DNA from: Gammaproteobacteria bacterium
GTDB lineage: Bacteria > Pseudomonadota > Gammaproteobacteria > Xanthomonadales > SZUA-36
DNA: 64,000 bases
NCBI GenBank assembly: GCA_021772915.1
Contig: JAJFLB010000012.1
Span: 124,001-188,000 of the forward strand
Direction of reading: 5' to 3'
The position numbers were made by a program, and so were the translations under genes. Positions 334-56,713 of the stretch are shown one piece after another (positions within the stretch are counted from its first letter, which is position 1; the number at the start of each line of letters is the position of its first letter). The notes under the pieces are model-generated. The model saw nothing but the letters and a program-made list of their open reading frames with translations, did no database searches and had not been told where the DNA came from.

Positions 334-1149
334 TTAACGACACTCCTGAAACGGCCAGAGCCATTCTCGTGCCGGGTCGCCAAATACGAAAAAATGTGGA
401 TTCAAAAAACTTTCCTTCCGATTGTAAGACAATGAAGTGCCATCAATCTCAACCACTTGACCACCGGCAGCCTCAACTACCGCTTGTGCCGCAGCGGTGT
501 CCCATTCACTGGTGGGACCCGTGCGTGGATAGAAATCTGCCTGGCCTTCTGCTATGTGGCAAAACTTCAGTGAACTGCCCATGCTGACAACTTCAGTGGG
601 TCCCAAATTACGAAGTTGGCTGGCGAGTTCGGGGTTGGCGTGTGAACGGCTGCCGACAACGAGAGCTGGTTCCGCTGCTGGTTGTCTCACTTCAATAGCC
701 ACGGCCTGGTCGGTACCAACCTGCCGCCAGGCACCATGACCCCTTGCACCAAAGTAGCTTGTAGTACTGACTGGTACATGGACAATGCCAAGTACCGGTT
801 GGTGATCACAAATCAGGGCGATATTAACCGTGAACTCCCCGTTGCGATTGATGAATTCCTTGGTGCCATCCAGGGGATCAACCAGCCAGTATTTCTGCCA
901 GTTTCTGCGGGTATGCCAGGGTATATCGGCATGTTCTTCAGAAAGGACCGGGATGTCCGGCCAAAATCGGGTTAACTCAGCCATGATCAATTCATGACTG
1001 GCCAGGTCGGCACGGGTAAGTGGTGAGTCGTCTGCTTTATAAGTGATACCCATGTCCCCGGTGTACCACTTCAGTATGGTCATACCGGCCCGGGAGCTGA
1101 TATCTACCAGGCGGTCCAGGTCTTGCTGAAGATTTTCACCGGTGAGCAT
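334..1149 (-). CDS. cysQ: 3'(2'),5'-bisphosphate nucleotidase CysQ
   Basis: IMPase-superfamily motifs WLVDPLDGTKEFINRNGEFTVNIALI and EWDTAAAQAVVEAAGG; start chosen at internal Met of the 334..1188 ORF. Confidence 0.9.
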   Translation of the reverse strand: MLTGENLQQDLDRLVDISSRAGMTILKWYTGDMGITYKADDSPLTRADLASHELIMAELTRFWPDIPVLSEEHADIPWHTRRNWQKYWLVDPLDGTKEFINRNGEFTVNIALICDHQPVLGIVHVPVSTTSYFGARGHGAWRQVGTDQAVAIEVRQPAAEPALVVGSRSHANPELASQLRNLGPTEVVSMGSSLKFCHIAEGQADFYPRTGPTSEWDTAAAQAVVEAAGGQVVEIDGTSLSYNRKESFLNPHFFVFGDPAREWLWPFQECR

Positions 1150-1245
1150 ATTGCACCTGGCAGCTGGCGAACAAAAACACCCCGGCAATCATGTGATCAC
1201 TTGCTTGCCGGCTGGGCCAGACTGGTGCAGGGTGCGGCGAAAGTG

Positions 1246-1797
1246 TCATTTAGATTCCTGTTGCAGATAGTCTCGCGCGATATACAGGGCGGCGATACTT
1301 CGGCCCTCGGTACAGTCAGGTCGTTGCACCAGTGTATGTAAATCCCTGATTGGCCAGGGAACGATCTCCAGTTCTTCCGGCTCGTCACCAACGAGCTTTT
1401 CCGGGTAGAGATTACGTGCCAGTACCACGTGGGTACTGTGAGACATGTAACCTGGTGCGAGACTTAAGGTAGTCAGTTCATACAGGTCTTCGGCACCGTA
1501 ACCGATCTCTTCTTTGAGTTCCCTTTGTGCGCCCTCCACTATGGATTCATCGGCTTCAAGACGACCTTTTACCAGACCCAGTTCGTAGTGATGGAGCCCC
1601 GCGGCGTACTCCCGCACCAGCAGTACGGTGTCCTCGTCAGGCATCGGTATCACGATAACTGCACCGAGACCCCTGCTGTGCAGACGTTCATAGGTACGTT
1701 TTGCGCCGTTACGAAACTCCAGATCAAGTTGCTCAATACGAAATAGCTTTCCTGGATCAAGGTCACGTTTGGCATGAATTTTTGGAAGTCTTTCCAT
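1246..1797 (-). CDS. nudE: ADP compounds hydrolase NudE (Nudix)
   Basis: Nudix box GRLEADESIVEGAQRELKEEIGYGA; adjacent to cysQ as in many gammaproteobacteria. Confidence 0.9.
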   Translation of the reverse strand: MERLPKIHAKRDLDPGKLFRIEQLDLEFRNGAKRTYERLHSRGLGAVIVIPMPDEDTVLLVREYAAGLHHYELGLVKGRLEADESIVEGAQRELKEEIGYGAEDLYELTTLSLAPGYMSHSTHVVLARNLYPEKLVGDEPEELEIVPWPIRDLHTLVQRPDCTEGRSIAALYIARDYLQQESK

Positions 1798-1803
1798 CGG
1801 GGC

Positions 1804-2595
1804 TCAGTCTCGGTTCAATTCTGTCAACAAGGTTTCATGTAATGGCCGCGTAGCAGCCAGTACCGAGTGTGTATCCAGGCTGATTGGTTGGTTGTCCAGG
1901 TCGGTAAACACCCCGCCCGCTTCTGTAATGATGACGTACAGAGCGGCAATATCCAGGATGTTTACATCGGATTCAATAATGGCATCCAACTGGCCGGCGG
2001 CAAGACGGTGGTAATGGTAATAATCACCGTAACCCCGGGTGCGATTTGCCCGGGACAATACTCTTCCAAGTGCAGGCCAACGATCACCTGCTGCCAGACT
2101 CTGGATGTTGCCTGTGGAAATACTTGCCTGTGAGATGCACTCCACATCACTGACACGCAGGTCCGCATCTTCGCTAAATGCGCCACCGCCACGTGTGGCC
2201 CACACCAGTTCGTTCATTGCTGGTGCGCAGGATACGCCAAGAACCAACTCACCACTGTGCATCAATGCGATCTGGGTAGAAAACATGCCGTAGCCTTTTA
2301 CAAAGCTCTTGGTGCCATCAATGGGGTCCACTAGCCAAAGGTAATCTGCGGCATCGCTATCCCTGCCGTATTCCTCGCCGAAGATGCCATGCTCGGGGTA
2401 AGCTTCCCCAAGTGTTGCACGGATTACCTGTTCTGCGCGGCGGTCAGCTACAGTCACGGGTGTCTGGTCGGCCTTGATTTCAACATCGATCTCGCCGTCA
2501 TAGTAAGACAGGATCAGCTCACGCGCGGCCCTGACGGCTCGTAAGGCCGTGGCAAGCAGTTCTTTCATGGCAGTTTCGGTTATTGCCTGCGGCAT
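1804..2595 (-). CDS. Inositol monophosphatase family protein (histidinol-phosphatase-like)
   Basis: GEEYGRDSD, WLVDPIDGTKSFVKGYGMFSTQIAL motifs; start at internal Met MPQAITETAM. Confidence 0.8.
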   Translation of the reverse strand: MPQAITETAMKELLATALRAVRAARELILSYYDGEIDVEIKADQTPVTVADRRAEQVIRATLGEAYPEHGIFGEEYGRDSDAADYLWLVDPIDGTKSFVKGYGMFSTQIALMHSGELVLGVSCAPAMNELVWATRGGGAFSEDADLRVSDVECISQASISTGNIQSLAAGDRWPALGRVLSRANRTRGYGDYYHYHRLAAGQLDAIIESDVNILDIAALYVIITEAGGVFTDLDNQPISLDTHSVLAATRPLHETLLTELNRD

Positions 2596-2720
2596 GGTTT
2601 GAGTACCCGGTGATCGCTGAACAAGGACTTTGGCAGCTTTGACTCGGTGTTGCTTGCAAGGCTGTGCCGTACTGCCCATGATACCAGACTGCAATTGATT
2701 CCAAAGAAAGTGGTTGGCCT

Positions 2721-4079
2721 ATGAGCGTGGGTAAAAATGAAGCAATCCGGCGCCGTGATCTCGCGGTACTGTGGCATCCAACCACACAGATGAAGGACCA
2801 CGAGTGGCTACCGCTGTTGCCGATTAGGAGTGCTCAGGGTGTGTGGTTGGAAGACATGCAGGGCAAGCGCTATATCGATGCCATCAGTTCCTGGTGGGTC
2901 AACTTGTTTGGCCACGCAAATGAGCATATTAGCGCTGCGGTCAGCGACCAGGCCAGGCGTCTTGAGCATGTCATCCTGGCCGGCGTCACCCACGAGCCGG
3001 CGGTGCAACTGGCAGAGAAGCTGGTCGGGATTACACCACTGGGTCTGGAACGGGTGTTTTTTGCGGATAGTGGTGCCTCCGCTGTTGAAATCGCACTGAA
3101 GATGAGTTTTCACTACTGGCACAATCGCGGCGAACCCGACCGCGTGCGTTTTGTGACATTATCCAACAGTTACCATGGAGATACGCTCGGAGCGCTAAGC
3201 GTTGGTGATGCCGGCTTGTTCAAGGCGGCTTATGAGCCCCTGTTGATGGACCCCCTGGTTGCACCCAGTCCGGATTGTTTTGGCTTGCCGCGGGGGCAGT
3301 GGGATGAGCACGCCGATCAGAAACTGGTGGAAATGGATGAGTTGTTGGCTTCGCACGAGGGTGAGATTTGTGCAGTTATTATCGAACCGCTGGTGCAGTG
3401 TGCCGGCGGCATGCGGATGTACCCACCTGCATACCTGAGTGGTCTGCGAGTTTTATGTGACAAGTACCGGGTGCACCTGATAGCTGATGAAATCGCGGTT
3501 GGCTTCGGCCGGACCGGAAGTATGTTTGCCTGCGAGCAGGGCGGGATCTCACCGGACTTCATGTGTCTTTCAAAGGGCCTGACCGGGGGTTACCTGCCGA
3601 TGTCGGCGGTGCTGACCAGCAACTTGGTTTATCAGGAGTTTTACGCTGAATACATTTCGCTCAGGGGCTTTTTGCATTCACACAGTTACACCGGTAATGC
3701 GCTGGCTTGCGCAGCAGCACTGGCCACTCTGGAGTTGTTTGAAGAGCGAGAGGTGTTGGCGGATAACCTTGTATTGGCCCAACACATGTTGACCGCTATC
3801 GAGCCATTGCAGGATCACCCGCATGTGGGGGATATACGACAGACCGGCATGATACTCGCCGTGGAGATGGTGGAACGGCGCGACCCCATGTTGCAGTACG
3901 ACTGGAAACAGCGTCGAGGCATGCGGGTGTATGAGCATGCACTGGATCAAGGGGTCTTGTTGAGACCGGTCGGTAATGTGGTTTATTTTATGCCCCCTTA
4001 CATCATCAATGAGGGTGAAATCGACCTGATGGCAAGGGCCGCTATCGATGGTATTGAACTGGCGACCGGTACGTCTTGA
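2721..4079 (+). CDS. bioA: Adenosylmethionine--8-amino-7-oxononanoate aminotransferase
   Basis: Class III aminotransferase; LWHPTTQMKDHE, SSWWVNLFGHAN, IADEIAVGFGRTG, LSKGLTGGYLP motifs typical of BioA. Confidence 0.93.
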   Translation: MSVGKNEAIRRRDLAVLWHPTTQMKDHEWLPLLPIRSAQGVWLEDMQGKRYIDAISSWWVNLFGHANEHISAAVSDQARRLEHVILAGVTHEPAVQLAEKLVGITPLGLERVFFADSGASAVEIALKMSFHYWHNRGEPDRVRFVTLSNSYHGDTLGALSVGDAGLFKAAYEPLLMDPLVAPSPDCFGLPRGQWDEHADQKLVEMDELLASHEGEICAVIIEPLVQCAGGMRMYPPAYLSGLRVLCDKYRVHLIADEIAVGFGRTGSMFACEQGGISPDFMCLSKGLTGGYLPMSAVLTSNLVYQEFYAEYISLRGFLHSHSYTGNALACAAALATLELFEEREVLADNLVLAQHMLTAIEPLQDHPHVGDIRQTGMILAVEMVERRDPMLQYDWKQRRGMRVYEHALDQGVLLRPVGNVVYFMPPYIINEGEIDLMARAAIDGIELATGTS

Positions 4080-46924: not shown

Positions 46925-47908
46925 ATGGCACCGATGCCAGCGGTTTGCGCAAGAGATTACCGTGATTTTACATTTGATGTCGTCTCTCCGGAGTTGCCTT
47001 GTGGTGCTGGCTGGCTGGCAAACTGCTTGTTGGAGCTGAATATCCCGGTTTGGCAACCCTGGGGCTTTGAAGTCAATAATGAATGGCAACGCTTGGCACC
47101 CTTCCATTATCAATACAAAGCCAAATGCGAACCTTGGAAGCAGACACTGCCGGCACTACAGCACTTGCGCGAATATCAATTTAGTTCTGAGAGCGCGGCC
47201 TGTTTCCGCCATCAATGGCCGCTTGCATTTGGAAAAAGACGCCCGTTGGTTTTCTTCGTTCGTGATCCGCGTGATGCGCTTTACTCACACTGGCGTAGAG
47301 CTATTCACAATGATCCGGGTTTTTATTTATCATTCGAGGCTTTTGTTCACTCGCCTTATTATCATTACCCAATCACCTTTCGAGAATACCAACTCCGTTT
47401 CCTGCAAATCTGGAGAAGTTATCTCTCCAAATCTGATCACTTGATTGTTCGTTTTGAAGACTACAAAGCTGATGCCAGACAAACTTTATGCAGAGTTCTA
47501 GATTTTTTGAAGATTAAGGCCGGAGAAGATCAAGTTGATCAGGCGTTGGCTTGTTCGGATTTTTCTGTGCTTAAACGCGTCGAAGATCAACTGGAAAAGC
47601 AAGGGCTATTAGAACGAAAGTTTAACTACGCGGGCATGGCTTTTGAGTATCAACAAAGCTATACGCCCATGATGCACCAGTGTGTGGGATCAGACTTTGA
47701 TGATATCTACCAATGGTTGGGCTATGCCAGTTACGTCGATGCTCGAAGTCAATCCTGCGACTTCCAGTCCGGTGACCATCGTATCAGCGCCATGATGGAC
47801 GTTTTTGATCCACCCGGGAATCCACAAGGAGGGGATAGACGAAAACAGGGAGGTCAGTATCAGCGACGGGGGCCCTGTCGACATGCCATTCAAGGATCGG
47901 CGAAATGA
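46925..47908 (+). CDS. Sulfotransferase-fold protein (candidate phosphoramidate transferase)
   Basis: PLVFFVRDPRDALYSHWRRAI and HLIVRFEDYKADARQTLCRVLDFL are sulfotransferase 3'-phosphate-binding-type motifs; overlaps next gene by 4 nt. Confidence 0.8.
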   Translation: MAPMPAVCARDYRDFTFDVVSPELPCGAGWLANCLLELNIPVWQPWGFEVNNEWQRLAPFHYQYKAKCEPWKQTLPALQHLREYQFSSESAACFRHQWPLAFGKRRPLVFFVRDPRDALYSHWRRAIHNDPGFYLSFEAFVHSPYYHYPITFREYQLRFLQIWRSYLSKSDHLIVRFEDYKADARQTLCRVLDFLKIKAGEDQVDQALACSDFSVLKRVEDQLEKQGLLERKFNYAGMAFEYQQSYTPMMHQCVGSDFDDIYQWLGYASYVDARSQSCDFQSGDHRISAMMDVFDPPGNPQGGDRRKQGGQYQRRGPCRHAIQGSAK

Positions 47909-48411
47909 CGGGTCAACTGTATTGGATAACCGGACTTGCGGGCGCAGGGAAAAGCAGCCTCGCACGCAAGCTGTTTAAAGCCCTCAAACCGGCTACCCCT
48001 GAGCTTGTATATCTGGATGGCGATACATTGCGGGAGCTTTTTGATGCCAACGGGCTATATAGGGAAGCTGACCGCCACCGCCTTGCGTTGCAATATGCAC
48101 ACCTATGTTATTTGCTGACAAGTCAAGGCGTGGATGTTATTTGCGCAACAATTTCCATGTTTGATGATGTGAGAGCATGGAACCGCGAACATTTTCCAAA
48201 TTATATCGAGATTTATCTCAAGGTCTCTTTTTCAGTTTTACAAAAGAGGGATCAAAACAAACTGTATAGCAACCATGCAAGACAACGAATAAATGATGCG
48301 GTTGGTTGTGATATAGATGCCCAACTACCGAAGCAGCCTGATATTGTTTTGTGCAATAACGGAGACAACACGATTGAAGAACTGGTGCGTCGAGTTCTGA
48401 AAAAAATATGA
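47905..48411 (+). CDS. APS-kinase-family protein; predicted cytidine diphosphoramidate kinase (Cj1415-like)
   Basis: Walker A TGLAGAGKSSLARKL, YLDGDTLRELF; lid/motif region ATISMFDDVRAWNREHFPNYIEIYLKV differs from canonical CysC FISPY pattern. Confidence 0.75.
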   Translation: MTGQLYWITGLAGAGKSSLARKLFKALKPATPELVYLDGDTLRELFDANGLYREADRHRLALQYAHLCYLLTSQGVDVICATISMFDDVRAWNREHFPNYIEIYLKVSFSVLQKRDQNKLYSNHARQRINDAVGCDIDAQLPKQPDIVLCNNGDNTIEELVRRVLKKI

Positions 48412-49166
48412 ACAATTCACTTGCCTGGGATTACACGCCATTGGCGGACGCATATCAAAAGAGGCCAAACTATCCTCAGGCAATCATCAGTCAGATTATT
48501 GATTTCACAGGTCTGCAACCGGGTGACGATGTATGTGATATGGGGGCAGGAACAGCTAACCTATCAATTTTGCTGGCTAAGAAGGGTTTACAGATACGGG
48601 CACTGGAACCTAATTTAACCATGCGCCAGCTTGGCGTCCAACGTACCCGGCATTATCAAGAGATCGGTTGGATAAATACCATTGCGGAAGCCTCCCAGTT
48701 ACATAGTAATGCCTATGACATGGTAAGTTTTGGCTCCTCATTTAATGTCGTTGATCGCACCGCTGCATTGCGGGAATCGCTGCGTATCTGTAAACCCAAT
48801 GGTTGGTTCATGGCGATTTGGAATCATCGTGATCTGGATAATCCGTTACAGCAACGTATCGAAACCTGTATCAAAGGGAACTTACCTGGCTACGACTATG
48901 GTCTTAGAAGACAGGACCAGGGGAAGTTTTTGGTGCAAAGTGGCTTGTTTTCTCAGGTCGATTACTTTGAAAGCTCAATGCTGATAAAACAGTGTATCGA
49001 CGATGTACTAGAAGCCTGGTGCTCACATGCCACTTTAAAAAGACAGACAGACAATGAGTTTACCGAGATTATTCAAAAAATAGCCGAAATCCTTCGTGAG
49101 GAAGATTCAAAAACCCTCGAAACACCTTACACGAGCCGTGCATGGGTAGCTCGGTTTCGTACCTGA
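48408..49166 (+). CDS. Class I SAM-dependent methyltransferase
   Basis: DVCDMGAGTANLSILLAKKGLQIRALEPN motif I; NVVDRTAALRESLRICKPNGWF. Confidence 0.85.
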   Translation: MNNSLAWDYTPLADAYQKRPNYPQAIISQIIDFTGLQPGDDVCDMGAGTANLSILLAKKGLQIRALEPNLTMRQLGVQRTRHYQEIGWINTIAEASQLHSNAYDMVSFGSSFNVVDRTAALRESLRICKPNGWFMAIWNHRDLDNPLQQRIETCIKGNLPGYDYGLRRQDQGKFLVQSGLFSQVDYFESSMLIKQCIDDVLEAWCSHATLKRQTDNEFTEIIQKIAEILREEDSKTLETPYTSRAWVARFRT

Positions 49167-49181
49167 AGAAACAACTCCATT

Positions 49182-50225
49182 ATGCGCTCTCTTCAATTTT
49201 CAGGAAAAGCTGAGACTCTACATAAGCTGCAAGGCAGAGTGCGTCATGCCATTGTATTACCGCAACTGCATTTCAGTTTAAAAACATGGTTTGATGCAGA
49301 CAGACATTGGGTTAATTTGGGATTGCAGGAAGAATGGCTGTCTCAGAAGCTTATTGTCCGTAGCAGTGCCCAGTCAGAGGATCACCAGCAGCATTCAATG
49401 GCAGGTCAGTTTCTGTCAGTAGCCCATGTGCAGGGAATTACAGCGATTGAAAAAGCTATTCACCAGGTAATCGAGTCATTTGATGACGAAAACCCATGTC
49501 ATCAAATACTGATACAACCCATGGTCCAGAACATCCGGCTTGGTGGTGTTGCATTTAGCTATGAACCTGGTCGGACCAGCCCCTACTATGTGATCAATTA
49601 TGCGTATGACTCGTCTGTCAGTCATTCTGTAACACAGGGCTTGGGTAACCCATTGAAACTGACGTATATCGCCAAATCAGCAGAGCCGAATCTTGGTGGT
49701 TGGAAGAAACAACTTTTAGATTTGCTCAAAGAGCTGGAGTGTTTGTTTGACAATGACGTCATCGATGTAGAGTTTGCCCTCACGTCTGAGGGTGAGCTCA
49801 TTTTGTTACAGGTTAGACCGCTGGTATTGTCAGGAAAACGATCGGTAACAGCACAGCAACAAAAGACGTTGCTCACCCACTTGAAACAACGGTTCCGGCG
49901 AGCAGGTCAGGAGAGTTATCGATGCCTTGGACAAAGCAATCTCTGGGGTGTTATGCCGGACTGGAATCCTGCCGAGATCATCGGTTTGAGACCAAGACCT
50001 CTGGCATATTCCCTGTATCGAGATTTGGTAACAGATAAGGTCTGGGCACAGCAGCGGCACGATTATGGCTATCGTGATGTTCGGTGTGTGCCATTGATGC
50101 TGGATGTTTGTGGTATTCCCTATATTGACATCCGGGCCAGCTTTAATTCCTTTATTCCGAAGCAATTGCCCGATGAGTTGGCTGGTGGGCTGGTGGGCTG
50201 GTGGAGTATTACCTGCACCGACTAA
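49182..50225 (+). CDS. Predicted L-glutamine kinase (PEP synthase-like), N-terminal part; frameshifted
   Basis: ATP-grasp-type KLIVRSSAQSEDHQQHSMAGQFLSV; IDVEFALTSEGELILLQVRPL; GVMPDWNPAEIIGLRPRPLAYSLYRDLVTD. ORF ends just after the triplicated 8-bp repeat. Confidence 0.75.
   Translation: MRSLQFSGKAETLHKLQGRVRHAIVLPQLHFSLKTWFDADRHWVNLGLQEEWLSQKLIVRSSAQSEDHQQHSMAGQFLSVAHVQGITAIEKAIHQVIESFDDENPCHQILIQPMVQNIRLGGVAFSYEPGRTSPYYVINYAYDSSVSHSVTQGLGNPLKLTYIAKSAEPNLGGWKKQLLDLLKELECLFDNDVIDVEFALTSEGELILLQVRPLVLSGKRSVTAQQQKTLLTHLKQRFRRAGQESYRCLGQSNLWGVMPDWNPAEIIGLRPRPLAYSLYRDLVTDKVWAQQRHDYGYRDVRCVPLMLDVCGIPYIDIRASFNSFIPKQLPDELAGGLVGWWSITCTD
50181..50204. repeat. Perfect 8-bp tandem repeat (GCTGGTGG)x3
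   Basis: gctggtgg gctggtgg gctggtgg read directly at 50181-50204; lies exactly where reading frame changes. Confidence 0.95.
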
Positions 50226-51514
50226 AGGATCATCCACAATGGCATGACAAAGTCGAGTTCAAGATTGTGTTGGCTTCGGACCATTTTTGCCTGCACCAGG
50301 ATTTGCAAGTTTTGTCGAGAAATGGATTTTCCAAAAATGACTGCCACCTGCTGCAAGACTCCCTCATGGAGCAGACGCGCAACATTATTAATCAACAACA
50401 GGGCTTGTGGTTAGGTGACTGCCAAAAGGTGCAAAAGCTTCCAAACCTGCATCAACAAATTATGAGGAGTCAGGTTGATGAAAAGACCAAACTGAGGAGC
50501 TTGCTTGCAATATGTCGCGAGTATGGCACCGGGCCTTTTGCAGGTCTGGCGAGGACAGCGTTTATGGCGGTCTGTTTTTTGCAGTCTCTGGTTAATCGAG
50601 GTGTTTTGTCAACTCTGGATCAGGCACTCTTTATGCGATCTTTGTCTACCGTAAGTGGGAGCTTGTTGCACGCCATGGGCACTACCAGCCGAGATCAATT
50701 TCTTCGTAAATATGGGCATCTGCGTCCCGGTATGTATGACATAACGTCTCCGCGTTACGATCAGATGCCGGACGAGTATTTTTGCTGGAGTTTTGAGACT
50801 CAAGAAACAAAGACTACATTATTTAGGTTGAACAAAAAACAACAAGTACAAATAGATGTGTTGCTAGAACAACACCATTACGAATTCACAGCGACCGAGT
50901 TCATGAGCTTTATCAAAAGAGCGATTGAGTGGCGAGAGAAAGCAAAATTTATTTTCAACCGAACTGTGAGTGAAATCCTTCTGCTTTGTCAACAACTGGG
51001 GCACCAATATCAGCTCGATAACCAGGATCTGAGCTTTCTGAAGATTGATCAGATTATTCAGTTGTCGAGTACAAAAACAGCATTGGAATTTGTGGTAGAA
51101 GCGCAAAAACAATACACACTAACCCAAGCGCTGGTTTTGCCTCCACTTATTACCATGACAGATGATTTTGATAGCTTTCAAATGCCGCCGCAGCAACCAA
51201 ACTTCATCACACTTGAACGGATCACCGCACAGGTGGTGCACTTAGCGGCAATCCCAAGCGTCTCAAGGGGGAATCTGAGGGGGAAAATTATTATGCTGCC
51301 ATCTGCTGACCCAGGTCATGATTGGTTGTTCACTCATCATATTGCGGGTTTGATGACTCGTTATGGCGGCTGCAATTCACACATGGCCATTCGTGCAGCG
51401 GAGTTAAGTTTGCCTGCCGTGATTGGCATGGGGGAAGTATTGTTTCAGCAGTTTTCAAACGCGCAGCTATTGATGCTCGATTGTGAACAGCAGACCATTC
51501 ATCGATTGCAATGA
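50201..51514 (+). CDS. Predicted L-glutamine kinase (PEP synthase-like), C-terminal part with phosphohistidine domain
   Basis: GLMTRYGGCNSHMAIRAAELSLPAVIG swivelling-domain motif; reads continuously with the upstream ORF if one 8-bp unit is removed (DELAGGLVEYYLHR). Confidence 0.75.
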   Translation: MEYYLHRLKDHPQWHDKVEFKIVLASDHFCLHQDLQVLSRNGFSKNDCHLLQDSLMEQTRNIINQQQGLWLGDCQKVQKLPNLHQQIMRSQVDEKTKLRSLLAICREYGTGPFAGLARTAFMAVCFLQSLVNRGVLSTLDQALFMRSLSTVSGSLLHAMGTTSRDQFLRKYGHLRPGMYDITSPRYDQMPDEYFCWSFETQETKTTLFRLNKKQQVQIDVLLEQHHYEFTATEFMSFIKRAIEWREKAKFIFNRTVSEILLLCQQLGHQYQLDNQDLSFLKIDQIIQLSSTKTALEFVVEAQKQYTLTQALVLPPLITMTDDFDSFQMPPQQPNFITLERITAQVVHLAAIPSVSRGNLRGKIIMLPSADPGHDWLFTHHIAGLMTRYGGCNSHMAIRAAELSLPAVIGMGEVLFQQFSNAQLLMLDCEQQTIHRLQ

Positions 51515-52137
51515 AAAAGATTCTTATCACCCAGCGGGTTGATTATATTTCGTCACGTAAAGAGCGACGAGACGCTCTGGATCAACGATGGATATCCCTG
51601 ATGTTGGCGGCAAATTTGTTGCCTGTTCCGGTTGCCAACAACCTTCATTGCGTAAAGCATATGTTGGAGCACGATCACTGCGATGGCTTGTTGCTGACGG
51701 GCGGAAACTCGCTAGTGGCTTGTGGTGGCAACAGTTCAGCACGTGATGATGTCGAGTGCTATTTGCTGGAATGGGCAATCAGGTATTTAAAACCAGTACT
51801 CGGGGTTTGTAGAGGAATGCAGCTCATACAGCATTACTATCAGATTCCGCTGGAACCCGTTCCTGACCACATTGGTGTACAGAAGCATTTGGAGGTGGTT
51901 GCAGATGACCAAGTTGCGCAAATGTACCGCAGTTTAAAGTCAGTGTCAGTTTTTCACCGGGTAGGCTGCTACCTGAGCCAACCGCCACTTAAAACTGTCG
52001 CCAAAACTGCGGAAAATGTGATCATGGCCATTCGACATGAAACCCTACCTGTTTATGGTGTCATGTGGCACCCGGAGCGAGAGGAGAGGATGAGAGAGAA
52101 ACACATTCAACACCTGAAGTTTGTCTTGGATCGTTGA
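51511..52137 (+). CDS. Class I glutamine amidotransferase/peptidase C26-like; predicted gamma-glutamyl-CDP-amidate hydrolase (Cj1417-like)
   Basis: GLLLTGGNSL, VLGVCRGMQLIQHY nucleophile Cys, GVMWHPERE. Confidence 0.78.
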   Translation: MKKILITQRVDYISSRKERRDALDQRWISLMLAANLLPVPVANNLHCVKHMLEHDHCDGLLLTGGNSLVACGGNSSARDDVECYLLEWAIRYLKPVLGVCRGMQLIQHYYQIPLEPVPDHIGVQKHLEVVADDQVAQMYRSLKSVSVFHRVGCYLSQPPLKTVAKTAENVIMAIRHETLPVYGVMWHPEREERMREKHIQHLKFVLDR

Positions 52138-52139
52138 AA

Positions 52140-52877
52140 ATGAAAGGCATAATTTTGGCGGCAGGCAGGGGAGAGCGCTTAGGCAGCTTGACTAAAAACC
52201 AACCAAAGTGCTTCACAAAAATACAAGGAAAACCGTTGATTCAATGGCAGTTGCAAGCATTACAATCAACAGGTATTAGTGATATTGCGGTTGTTACGGG
52301 TTTTCGGTCGGATTGCTTTAGCTATGATCTGACCTACTTTTTCAATGATCAGTGGGCCGTAAGCAATATGGTGACCTCCTTGCTGACCGCCTCAGCCTGG
52401 CTTGAAAAAGAAACCTGCATCGTCAGTTATAGTGACATTGTTTATTCCGCTGACGTGGTTCAGTCGCTTCAGGCAACCTCTGGTGATGTTGTGATCAGTT
52501 ACGACCCAAACTGGTTAGAGCTGTGGCAACTAAGATTCGAACATCCGCTGGATGATGCTGAAACGTTTCGCACCAGGCACGGCCGCTTGCTGGAGATTGG
52601 AGCACAACCCGAGTCAATAAATAATGTGGAGGGCCAATACATGGGTTTGTTGCGAATCACACCGGCGGGATGGCGACAAATGACTGATTGTTTGGCGACC
52701 TTGCCGGTTCGGACGCAGCAGCAGCTTGATCTGACTGGTTTGTTGAGCAGAATGGTCATGCAAGGCGTGAACATAAGGACGGTTCCGATCACAGACCGTT
52801 GGTTTGAAGTAGATACCGTGCGTGATTTAGCTTGCTATGAGGCCTTAGGCCGAGACGAATTTCCAAACTTCAATTGA
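52140..52877 (+). CDS. Nucleotidyltransferase; predicted CTP:phosphoglutamine cytidylyltransferase (Cj1416-like)
   Basis: MKGIILAAGRGERLGSLTKNQPKCFTKIQGKPLIQWQLQAL; IVSYSDIVY; start at internal Met of the 52065 ORF. Confidence 0.78.
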   Translation: MKGIILAAGRGERLGSLTKNQPKCFTKIQGKPLIQWQLQALQSTGISDIAVVTGFRSDCFSYDLTYFFNDQWAVSNMVTSLLTASAWLEKETCIVSYSDIVYSADVVQSLQATSGDVVISYDPNWLELWQLRFEHPLDDAETFRTRHGRLLEIGAQPESINNVEGQYMGLLRITPAGWRQMTDCLATLPVRTQQQLDLTGLLSRMVMQGVNIRTVPITDRWFEVDTVRDLACYEALGRDEFPNFN

Positions 52878-55263: not shown

Positions 55264-56713
55264 ATGGGATTACCTTCACACAATATTCACCTGGCAAAGC
55301 AAGACTCCGCAGGCGTTTATGTACGCCACCGGCCTGAGACGACCTTGCTTTATCAGATCGTACGGGAGTACTGGCCCGAGTTCCAGGCCGAGTTGACCAG
55401 TCATGGTAAGTACCTGCCAGGATACGTTGCCAAAGAATTTGATGAGTATCTGAAGTGCGGAAGACTTGAATATGGATTCCTGAGAGTACGGTGTGATTCT
55501 TGCCACGATGAGAAACTGGTCGCTTTCAGTTGCAAGAAACGGGGTTTCTGTCCCAGTTGTGGGGCACGTCGCATGGCGGATAGTGCTGCTCTGCTGGTAG
55601 ATGATATCCTGCCCCATCAAGCCATGCGCCAATGGGTTCTCAGCGTACCGTTTCCGCTGCGCTTCCTGTTTGCCAACGATCCCAAAGCCATGACCGGGGT
55701 ATTGGGCATTGTCTACCGCACCATCGCCACACATCTGACACACAAAGCGGGCTTTACAAAGCCTGTGGCACAAACGGGTGCTGTAACCTTGATCCAGCGC
55801 TTTGGCAGTGCGCTGAACCTGAATATTCATTTTCACATGCTGTTTCTGGATGGTGTTTACATTGACGCCAAGAATGGAACTTCACGGTTTCGTCGGGCTA
55901 AAGCCCCGGCCATTGATGAACTGACCAGGTTAACGCATACCATCGCACACCGTGTCGGCGGTTACCTTGAACGCAGAGGTCTGCTGGAACGTGATACCGG
56001 CAATGCCTATCTAAGCCATGAGGCTGTGGCCGTCTCGGATGAGGACCCATCAATTGACCTGCTCGGAAGCTCGATTACTTACCGCATTGCATTAGGTCCA
56101 CAGCAAGGTCGCAAGGTTATGACTTTGCAGACCTTGCCAGATTGTGGAGATGACCCGTTTACAACAAGGGTGGGAAATGTAGCTGGATTTTCACTGCACG
56201 CTGGGGTTGCCACCAAAGCCAATGAACGAGCGAAACTGGAACGCTTGTGCCGATATATTACAAGACCCGCGGTATCCACAAAGCGGGCGCAACGGCACGA
56301 CCCATGTGATATTCGAACCACTGGATTTTATTTCCAGGCTGGTTAGCTTGGTTCCCAAGCCTAGAGTAAACCTCACTCGATTTCATGGCGTGTTCGCGCC
56401 GAATAGTAAACATCGGGCTAAGGTAACACCGGCCAGACGGGGCAAACGTAAAATATCCAACTCAGCCGACCAAACCCCTGCCGAAAAACGGGCCTCAATG
56501 AGTTGGGCAAAACGATTGAAGCGTGTTTTCAACATAGACATTGAAACCTGCAGTGAATGCGGTGGTGACGTCAGAATCATCGCCAGTATTGAAGACCCGG
56601 CAGTTATTCAGAAAGTACTTGCCCACCTCGAAAACACTACAAGTACTGCAGCGACAGCGCTGCTGCCGGATTGCCGTGCATCACCCAGCCTGCCGGTAGG
56701 TATATTCGACTGA
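55264..56713 (+). mobile_element. IS91-family transposase, frameshifted/internally deleted
   Basis: N-term zinc-binding CDSCHDEKLVAFSCKKRGFCPSCGARRMADSAALLVDDILP; HFHMLFLDGVY; C-term GRNGTTHVIFEPLDFISRLVSLVPKPRVNLTRFHGVFAPNSKHR in another frame after ~56270. Confidence 0.9.

Follow-up and report, generated by a model that had tools for sequence, protein, structure and literature searches.

The window, i.e. the whole 64,000-nucleotide stretch of gammaproteobacterial DNA analysed here, carries a six-gene cassette (Table 1). Five of its genes belong to the CDP-phosphoramidate pathway and the sixth, 46925-47908, starts with ATG and encodes a 327-aa protein. No other transferase gene is present and, as the operon otherwise holds only pathway genes, the product of 46925-47908 is the sole transferase candidate there. 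A sensor kinase gene lies upstream and convergent, unrelated genes lie downstream, neither of which belongs to the cassette. An identical six-gene cassette, again without another transferase, occurs between unrelated flanking genes in two further loci (L155, L157). The cassette can be viewed as a self-contained unit of phosphoramidate decoration, all steps of which are inferred here from homology. Downstream of it (55264-56346), an ORF resembling an IS91-type transposase was noted by eye.

Table 1 Features of the phosphoramidate cassette, in window positions
Feature	Position	Strand	Evidence
Sulfotransferase-fold protein, proposed (O-methyl)phosphoramidate transferase	46925..47908	+	Pfam, AlphaFold/Foldseek, dN/dS
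Altered PSB loop, SPELPCGAGW, residues 21-30; replaces PKSGTTW, Pro25 at the Lys position	46985..47014	+	Alignment, model
His96, equivalent to the catalytic base of sulfotransferases	47210..47212	+	Invariant in family alignment
3'-phosphate-binding motif VRDPRDALYSHWRR, R113 and S121	47258..47299	+	Invariant in alignment, profile match
APS-kinase-like protein, proposed CDP-phosphoramidate 3'-kinase (Cj1415 type)	47905..48411	+	NF004041, TIGR00455, tree
SAM-dependent methyltransferase, probable phosphoramidate O-methylation (role inferred)	48408..49166	+	Pfam Methyltransf_11, E 1e-9
Glutamine kinase, N-terminal part; frame disrupted further downstream	49182..50225	+	NF004508, E 6.8e-113
8-bp tandem repeat, 3.1 perfect copies, at the glutamine-kinase frame break	50180..50204	+	Repeat detection, comparison with relative
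Glutamine kinase, C-terminal part	50201..51514	+	NF004508, E 1.1e-141
Gamma-glutamyl-CDP-amidate hydrolase (Cj1417 type)	51511..52137	+	NF045546, E 4.7e-28, below curated cut-off
CTP:phosphoglutamine cytidylyltransferase (Cj1416 type)	52140..52877	+	Pfam NTP_transf_3, E 4.9e-18; role from gene context and the known pathway

In this study, the 327-aa protein was assigned to the sulfotransferase superfamily by its predicted fold, with a score well above chance. Pfam Sulfotransfer_1 (PF00685) matched residues 109-252 with 43.8 bits (cut-off 22; E 2.7e-11) and left the N-terminal third unmatched, where an unusual PSB loop is located. Single-sequence phmmer searches of the PDB gave only weak matches and a profile was required; with the profile of the 14-member family, PDB sulfotransferases were matched at E 4e-13. 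Foldseek searches with the AlphaFold model (mean pLDDT 82.6) returned sulfotransferases as all top matches, those bound to PAP or PAPS being the best, with 1ls6 (SULT1A1 with PAP) in first place (E 7e-8, probability 1.00). The TM value was only about 0.5 and the rmsd about 6 Å, so that details of the pocket cannot be read from the model. Purifying selection acts on the gene (dN/dS 0.22 in comparison with a congener), and its stop codon overlaps the ATG of the kinase gene by four bases (ATGA, 47905-47908). The first-pass annotation had described a sulfotransferase-fold ORF with the motifs VRDPRDALYSHWRR and VRFEDYKADARQTL, translationally coupled to this kinase. The ORF and both motifs (residues 112-125 and 175-188) were confirmed, as was the fold by Pfam and the model; the overlap was also confirmed, and coupling itself is plausible.

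Canonical sulfotransferases grip the 5'-phosphosulfate by a PKSGTTW-type loop. In the family of the window protein this loop has changed to P[C/S/A]GxxW: the PSB Lys and Thr are lost in every member, the loop reads SPELPCGAGW or a close variant of it, and S21, P25 and G27 are invariant in the 14 members. In the model the loop follows strand 17-20 and precedes helix 28-37, which is the expected strand-loop-helix place. Weaker homologues from the same order that are not linked to pathway genes have canonical PKxG loops (PKTGGTW, PKSGNTW), and five other sulfotransferase-domain proteins of the window genome have PRSGTT, PRSGST or PRAGST loops. R113 and S121 of the 3'-phosphate motif, as well as H96, are invariant in the family alignment. 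We take H96 to be the catalytic His of SULT enzymes, by its motif and established SULT knowledge, and the roles given here to the loop, R113/S121 and H96 are likewise taken from established knowledge of the SULT family together with the alignment. Among the features of PAPS-dependent sulfotransferases, the 3'-phosphate Arg/Ser and the catalytic His are present and the PSB Lys/Arg and Ser/Thr are absent; with its PSB loop, the protein fails a defining feature of these enzymes. The site for the 3'-phosphate is thus conserved while that for the transferred group has changed, a pattern that fits a donor with a 3'-phosphate and without sulfate. Compared with the cytosolic PAPS sulfotransferases (SULT, Sulfotransfer_1), the window protein shares the fold, the RDPRD..S 3'-phosphate motif, the catalytic His and the C-terminal half of the profile. 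The two differ in the loop (PKSGTTW in SULT, P[CSA]GxxW in the window family), in the linkage of the window family to CDP-phosphoramidate genes and in its proposed donor, a 3'-phospho-CDP-amidate.

The coupled APS-kinase-like protein scored 174.5 bits against NF004041 (PRK05541-type; cut-off 127), a profile which we take to cover Cj1415. Against TIGR00455 (CysC) it scored 87.9 bits, under the cut-off of 138.7, whereas a separate true CysC of the window genome reached 246 bits. In the kinase tree, 17 true CysC proteins including that of the window genome formed one 100/100 clade; the window kinase was found outside this clade, among glutamine-kinase-linked kinases (one row labelled CysC, L203, is actually the glutamine-kinase-linked kinase of L082). 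Given its place in the tree and its score below the TIGR00455 cut-off, the coupled kinase is not the PAPS source of the genome. Its profile and its linkage to glutamine kinase mark it as a putative cytidine diphosphoramidate kinase of the Cj1415 type, with the substrate inferred.

Linkage to the pathway was surveyed across the order, in 300 genomes, where 14 places with homologues of the window protein were found at E<1e-20, the window itself being excluded. Pathway genes adjoin 13 of these 14 places, and the glutamine kinase itself lies within the fetched stretch at 10 of the 13; the three linked places without it lie on short contigs or close to the end of a contig. Gene order differs between bacterial families and adjacency is retained. 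The unlinked exception, L156 (G496:C44, 9492-10409, minus strand), comes from a genome that has the full cassette as well and represents an additional copy there; this stand-alone copy is 61% identical to the window protein and under purifying selection (dN/dS 0.13). A search of 72,556 plasmid records gave a single match, in Azospirillum lipoferum 4B, which lies inside a pathway operon encoding a kinase, a methyltransferase, a PEP-utilizing enzyme, a gamma-glutamyl hydrolase, a cytidylyltransferase, a DUF1566 protein and the sulfotransferase. On plasmid AZO_p6 of the same strain (L207:656-3196), one protein joins the APS-kinase-like domain to an N-terminal stretch of about 640 residues, the first part of which shows the sulfotransferase-like motifs FIHFDLPRAAGDSL and FVRNPFDWYISSYY. 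That this protein is a sulfotransferase-kinase fusion remains unconfirmed, as Pfam and PDB searches found nothing.

To look beyond the order, 80 loci of many phyla were collected by the glutamine-kinase profile and combined with 15 from the phylum of the window, giving 95 loci (93 distinct). A methyltransferase homologue is encoded in 65 of the 95. Phmmer with the window protein detected relatives in just 3 of the 95, which suggested a refutation; this was overturned by profile and Pfam searches, which revealed a second, divergent family. Its members have 410-940 aa and a Sulfotransfer_3-like domain, often preceded by a PglD_N-like or TPR domain. With both types counted, sulfotransferase-fold proteins are encoded in at least 37 of the 93 distinct loci, and in about 16 loci such a gene and the kinase gene are immediate neighbours. 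In 50 whole genomes, the glutamine-kinase loci account for 0.5% of the sequence and contain 27 of the 119 Sulfotransfer_3 matches (about 47-fold enrichment). It cannot be excluded that this enrichment is partly indirect, through glycan islands attracting both gene types. About half of the glutamine-kinase loci lack a sulfotransferase-fold protein recognisable by Pfam, profile or phmmer. Across the 93 loci, co-occurrence of such a protein with a kinase gene in the same locus was only a trend and not significant (Fisher P 0.20 or 0.075).

Comparison of profiles shows the two families to be related (hhalign probability 94, E 1.3e-7), and the model of a second-family protein from Anaerotruncus colihominis JM4-15 (L098; pLDDT 86) matches sulfotransferases. 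The closest solved relatives of the second family are of the Sulfotransfer_3 type, namely CurM, olefin synthase sulfotransferase domains and tyrosylprotein sulfotransferases. Compared with the CurM type, this family, which is the larger one and occurs in glutamine-kinase loci of Firmicutes and others, adds the N-terminal PglD_N-like or TPR domain and often misses the PSB Lys/Arg; in some Proteobacteria the loop Arg is retained (GRSG type). In Paenibacillus kobensis (L103:2790-5564), an AMP-binding (adenylation) domain is fused to Sulfotransfer_3 just upstream of the glutamine kinase. Two plasmid-borne glutamine-kinase loci, of Agrobacterium vitis (L213) and Vibrio alfacsensis (L210), lack annotated genes for a kinase or a sulfotransferase within 6 kb and carry instead a gene of the CDP-alcohol phosphatidyltransferase or CDP-glycerol glycerophosphotransferase family; potentially, other transferase classes use CDP-phosphoramidate directly. 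A glutamine-kinase homologue (32.8% identity) was also seen at positions 826-3003 of MT837632.1, a 9.5-kb phage record labelled 'Bacteriophage sp.' that stems from human faeces and may be mis-binned bacterial DNA.

The availability of PAPS was assessed in the genomes that bear these loci. CysD/ATP sulfurylase (TIGR02039, PF01747) was undetected in several of them, e.g. A. colihominis JM4-15 and Eubacterium sp. 14-2 (L081), and no CysC over cut-off was found in these two genomes, in which the only Sulfotransfer_3 matches genome-wide are those in the phosphoramidate locus. Without detectable CysD/ATP sulfurylase, PAPS is an improbable donor in such genomes; they are drafts, and absence is no proof. 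For the lineage of the window itself, absence of PAPS was considered and rejected, as a true APS kinase is encoded elsewhere in every same-order genome that has the window family.

The glutamine kinase of the window strain is split over two frames at the 8-bp repeat. In the congener L155 the frame is intact and 8 nt shorter at the repeat site. This split was absent from the first-pass annotation. The repeat at the break looks like slippage and it is possible that it reflects phase variation of phosphoramidate synthesis. With this gene broken, the cassette may have been turned off, or may be failing, in the window strain. All remaining cassette genes are intact and under purifying selection (dN/dS 0.09-0.22).

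The enzymes leading to 3'-phospho-CDP-phosphoramidate are known from Campylobacter jejuni, i.e. glutamine kinase, cytidylyltransferase, hydrolase and CDP-amidate kinase (pathway of the Raushel laboratory; cited in PMC12096443, PMC6429109). All genes of this Cj1415/Cj1418 pathway are present in the window by homology, which differs from it in the bacterium, the operon and the broken glutamine-kinase frame of the window strain. In C. jejuni, the end-of-pathway role proposed here for the window protein is filled by the MeOPN transferases Cj1421/Cj1422 (PMC3907429, PMC11800397). These have about 610-640 aa (PMC7901785), compared with 327 aa for the window protein, and a protein of this type was described with a C-terminal DUF2972 (PMC5808241). 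A Pfam search of the window proteins gave no match to DUF2972 (PF11186), the family of Cj1421/Cj1422, and none over cut-off was detected in 50 non-Campylobacter genomes with glutamine kinase. No paper combining phosphoramidate, sulfotransferase and capsular polysaccharide was found in the open-licence literature searched.

The most likely reading of the cassette is the following pathway. Glutamine kinase would form N-phosphoglutamine, from which the cytidylyltransferase would make gamma-glutamyl-CDP-amidate, and the hydrolase would then free CDP-phosphoramidate. The 3'-OH of this compound would be phosphorylated by the APS-kinase-like enzyme, and its phosphoramidate would probably be methylated by the methyltransferase; methylation aside, these proposed synthesis steps are known steps in Campylobacter (PMC12096443, PMC6429109). 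In the last step, the 46925-47908 product would take the (O-methyl)phosphoramidyl group off the 3'-phospho-CDP donor and attach it to a surface-glycan hydroxyl, with 3'-phospho-CMP as the leaving product. In this scheme His96 would serve as the base, the 3'-phosphate would be bound by R113/S121 as it is in PAPS enzymes, and the SPELPCGAGW loop, in its remodelled form, would hold the phosphoramidate diphosphate in place of phosphosulfate. Fold, motifs, operon structure, conserved linkage and loop change are shown in this study; donor, transferred group and acceptor are inferred. We regard the protein as most likely a sulfotransferase-like enzyme that uses 3'-phospho-CDP-(O-methyl)amidate instead of PAPS, its activity and base specificity being likewise inferred, without biochemistry. 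Counting against this reading are the APS kinase elsewhere in every same-order genome with the family, through which PAPS is available, the possible contribution of shared glycan islands to the enrichment, the lack of a significant association with the kinase gene, the roughly half of loci that lack such a protein, the GRSG loops, the stand-alone copy L156 and the broken kinase frame.

Of the alternatives, an ordinary PAPS-dependent carbohydrate sulfotransferase survives best, although we consider it unlikely. The glycan would then carry both sulfate and phosphoramidate, with PAPS supplied by the CysNC of the genome. The sulfotransferase fold, the intact 3'-phosphate motif and the catalytic His speak for it, as does the true APS kinase elsewhere in the window genome and in all relatives that bear the family. 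However, the PSB Lys and Thr are gone in all family members, the cassette offers no other transferase, the coupled kinase is not a CysC, and sulfotransferase-fold proteins accompany the pathway in genomes lacking detectable ATP sulfurylase. Second, the protein might have a pathway role without being the final transferase, e.g. as a non-catalytic acceptor-binding subunit, the transfer being performed by an unlinked enzyme. Loss of the PSB Lys can signal lost catalysis, and the unlinked copy L156 implies that transferases can sit elsewhere; nevertheless, the invariant H96, R113 and S121 and the purifying selection point to an active enzyme, and different sulfotransferase-fold families recur in the same genetic slot; we consider this explanation very unlikely. 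Decay of the cassette in the window strain, leaving the gene without a current role there whatever its relatives do, is suggested by the two-frame glutamine kinase at the 8-bp repeat but is also very unlikely, as the other cassette genes are intact, conserved and under selection and a break by repeat copy number is compatible with on/off switching as well.

The reading as a phosphoramidate transferase using a 3'-phospho-CDP donor, which had been put forward in the first-pass annotation, is strongly supported, as a hypothesis and not as a demonstrated function; the reaction and a preference for cytosine over adenine are inferred. Homologues generally unlinked to glutamine-kinase genes would have refuted it, and when this was tested the outcome (13 of 14 places and the plasmid match) favoured the hypothesis. 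Its attribution of the Campylobacter transfer step to Cj1421/Cj1422 is in line with the literature (PMC3907429, PMC11800397), and the phosphoramidate transferase with a sulfotransferase fold of which it knew no example was not found in the open-licence literature searched either. Support that it had not foreseen came from the PSB-loop change being confined to the linked family, from the position of the kinase outside the CysC clade and from the recurrence of the sulfotransferase fold across phyla, including genomes without detectable ATP sulfurylase.

A bolder reading can be proposed, for which, with its three parts taken jointly, the balance tips only slightly in favour. The sulfotransferase fold might be how phosphoramidate is generally transferred by bacteria other than Campylobacter; no fewer than two separate families of this fold might have been recruited for 3'-phospho-CDP-(O-methyl)amidate, a pyrimidine analogue of PAPS; and the APS-kinase-like step might exist to make a 3'-phosphate handle, so that a second, phosphorus-based system of 3'-phosphonucleotide donors would run parallel to PAPS. 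Neither the fold and mechanism of phosphoramidate transfer nor a reason for phosphorylating the 3'-OH of CDP-phosphoramidate was reported in the literature searched. If true, a sulfotransferase-fold reader of the 3'-phosphate would give a direct rationale for the extra phosphate of the pathway, together with a testable active site. Many annotated sulfotransferases beside adenylyl-sulfate kinase genes may then sulfate nothing. Dozens of candidate enzymes would become available in bacteria other than Campylobacter, and a well-known superfamily would be extended from sulfuryl to phosphoramidyl transfer.
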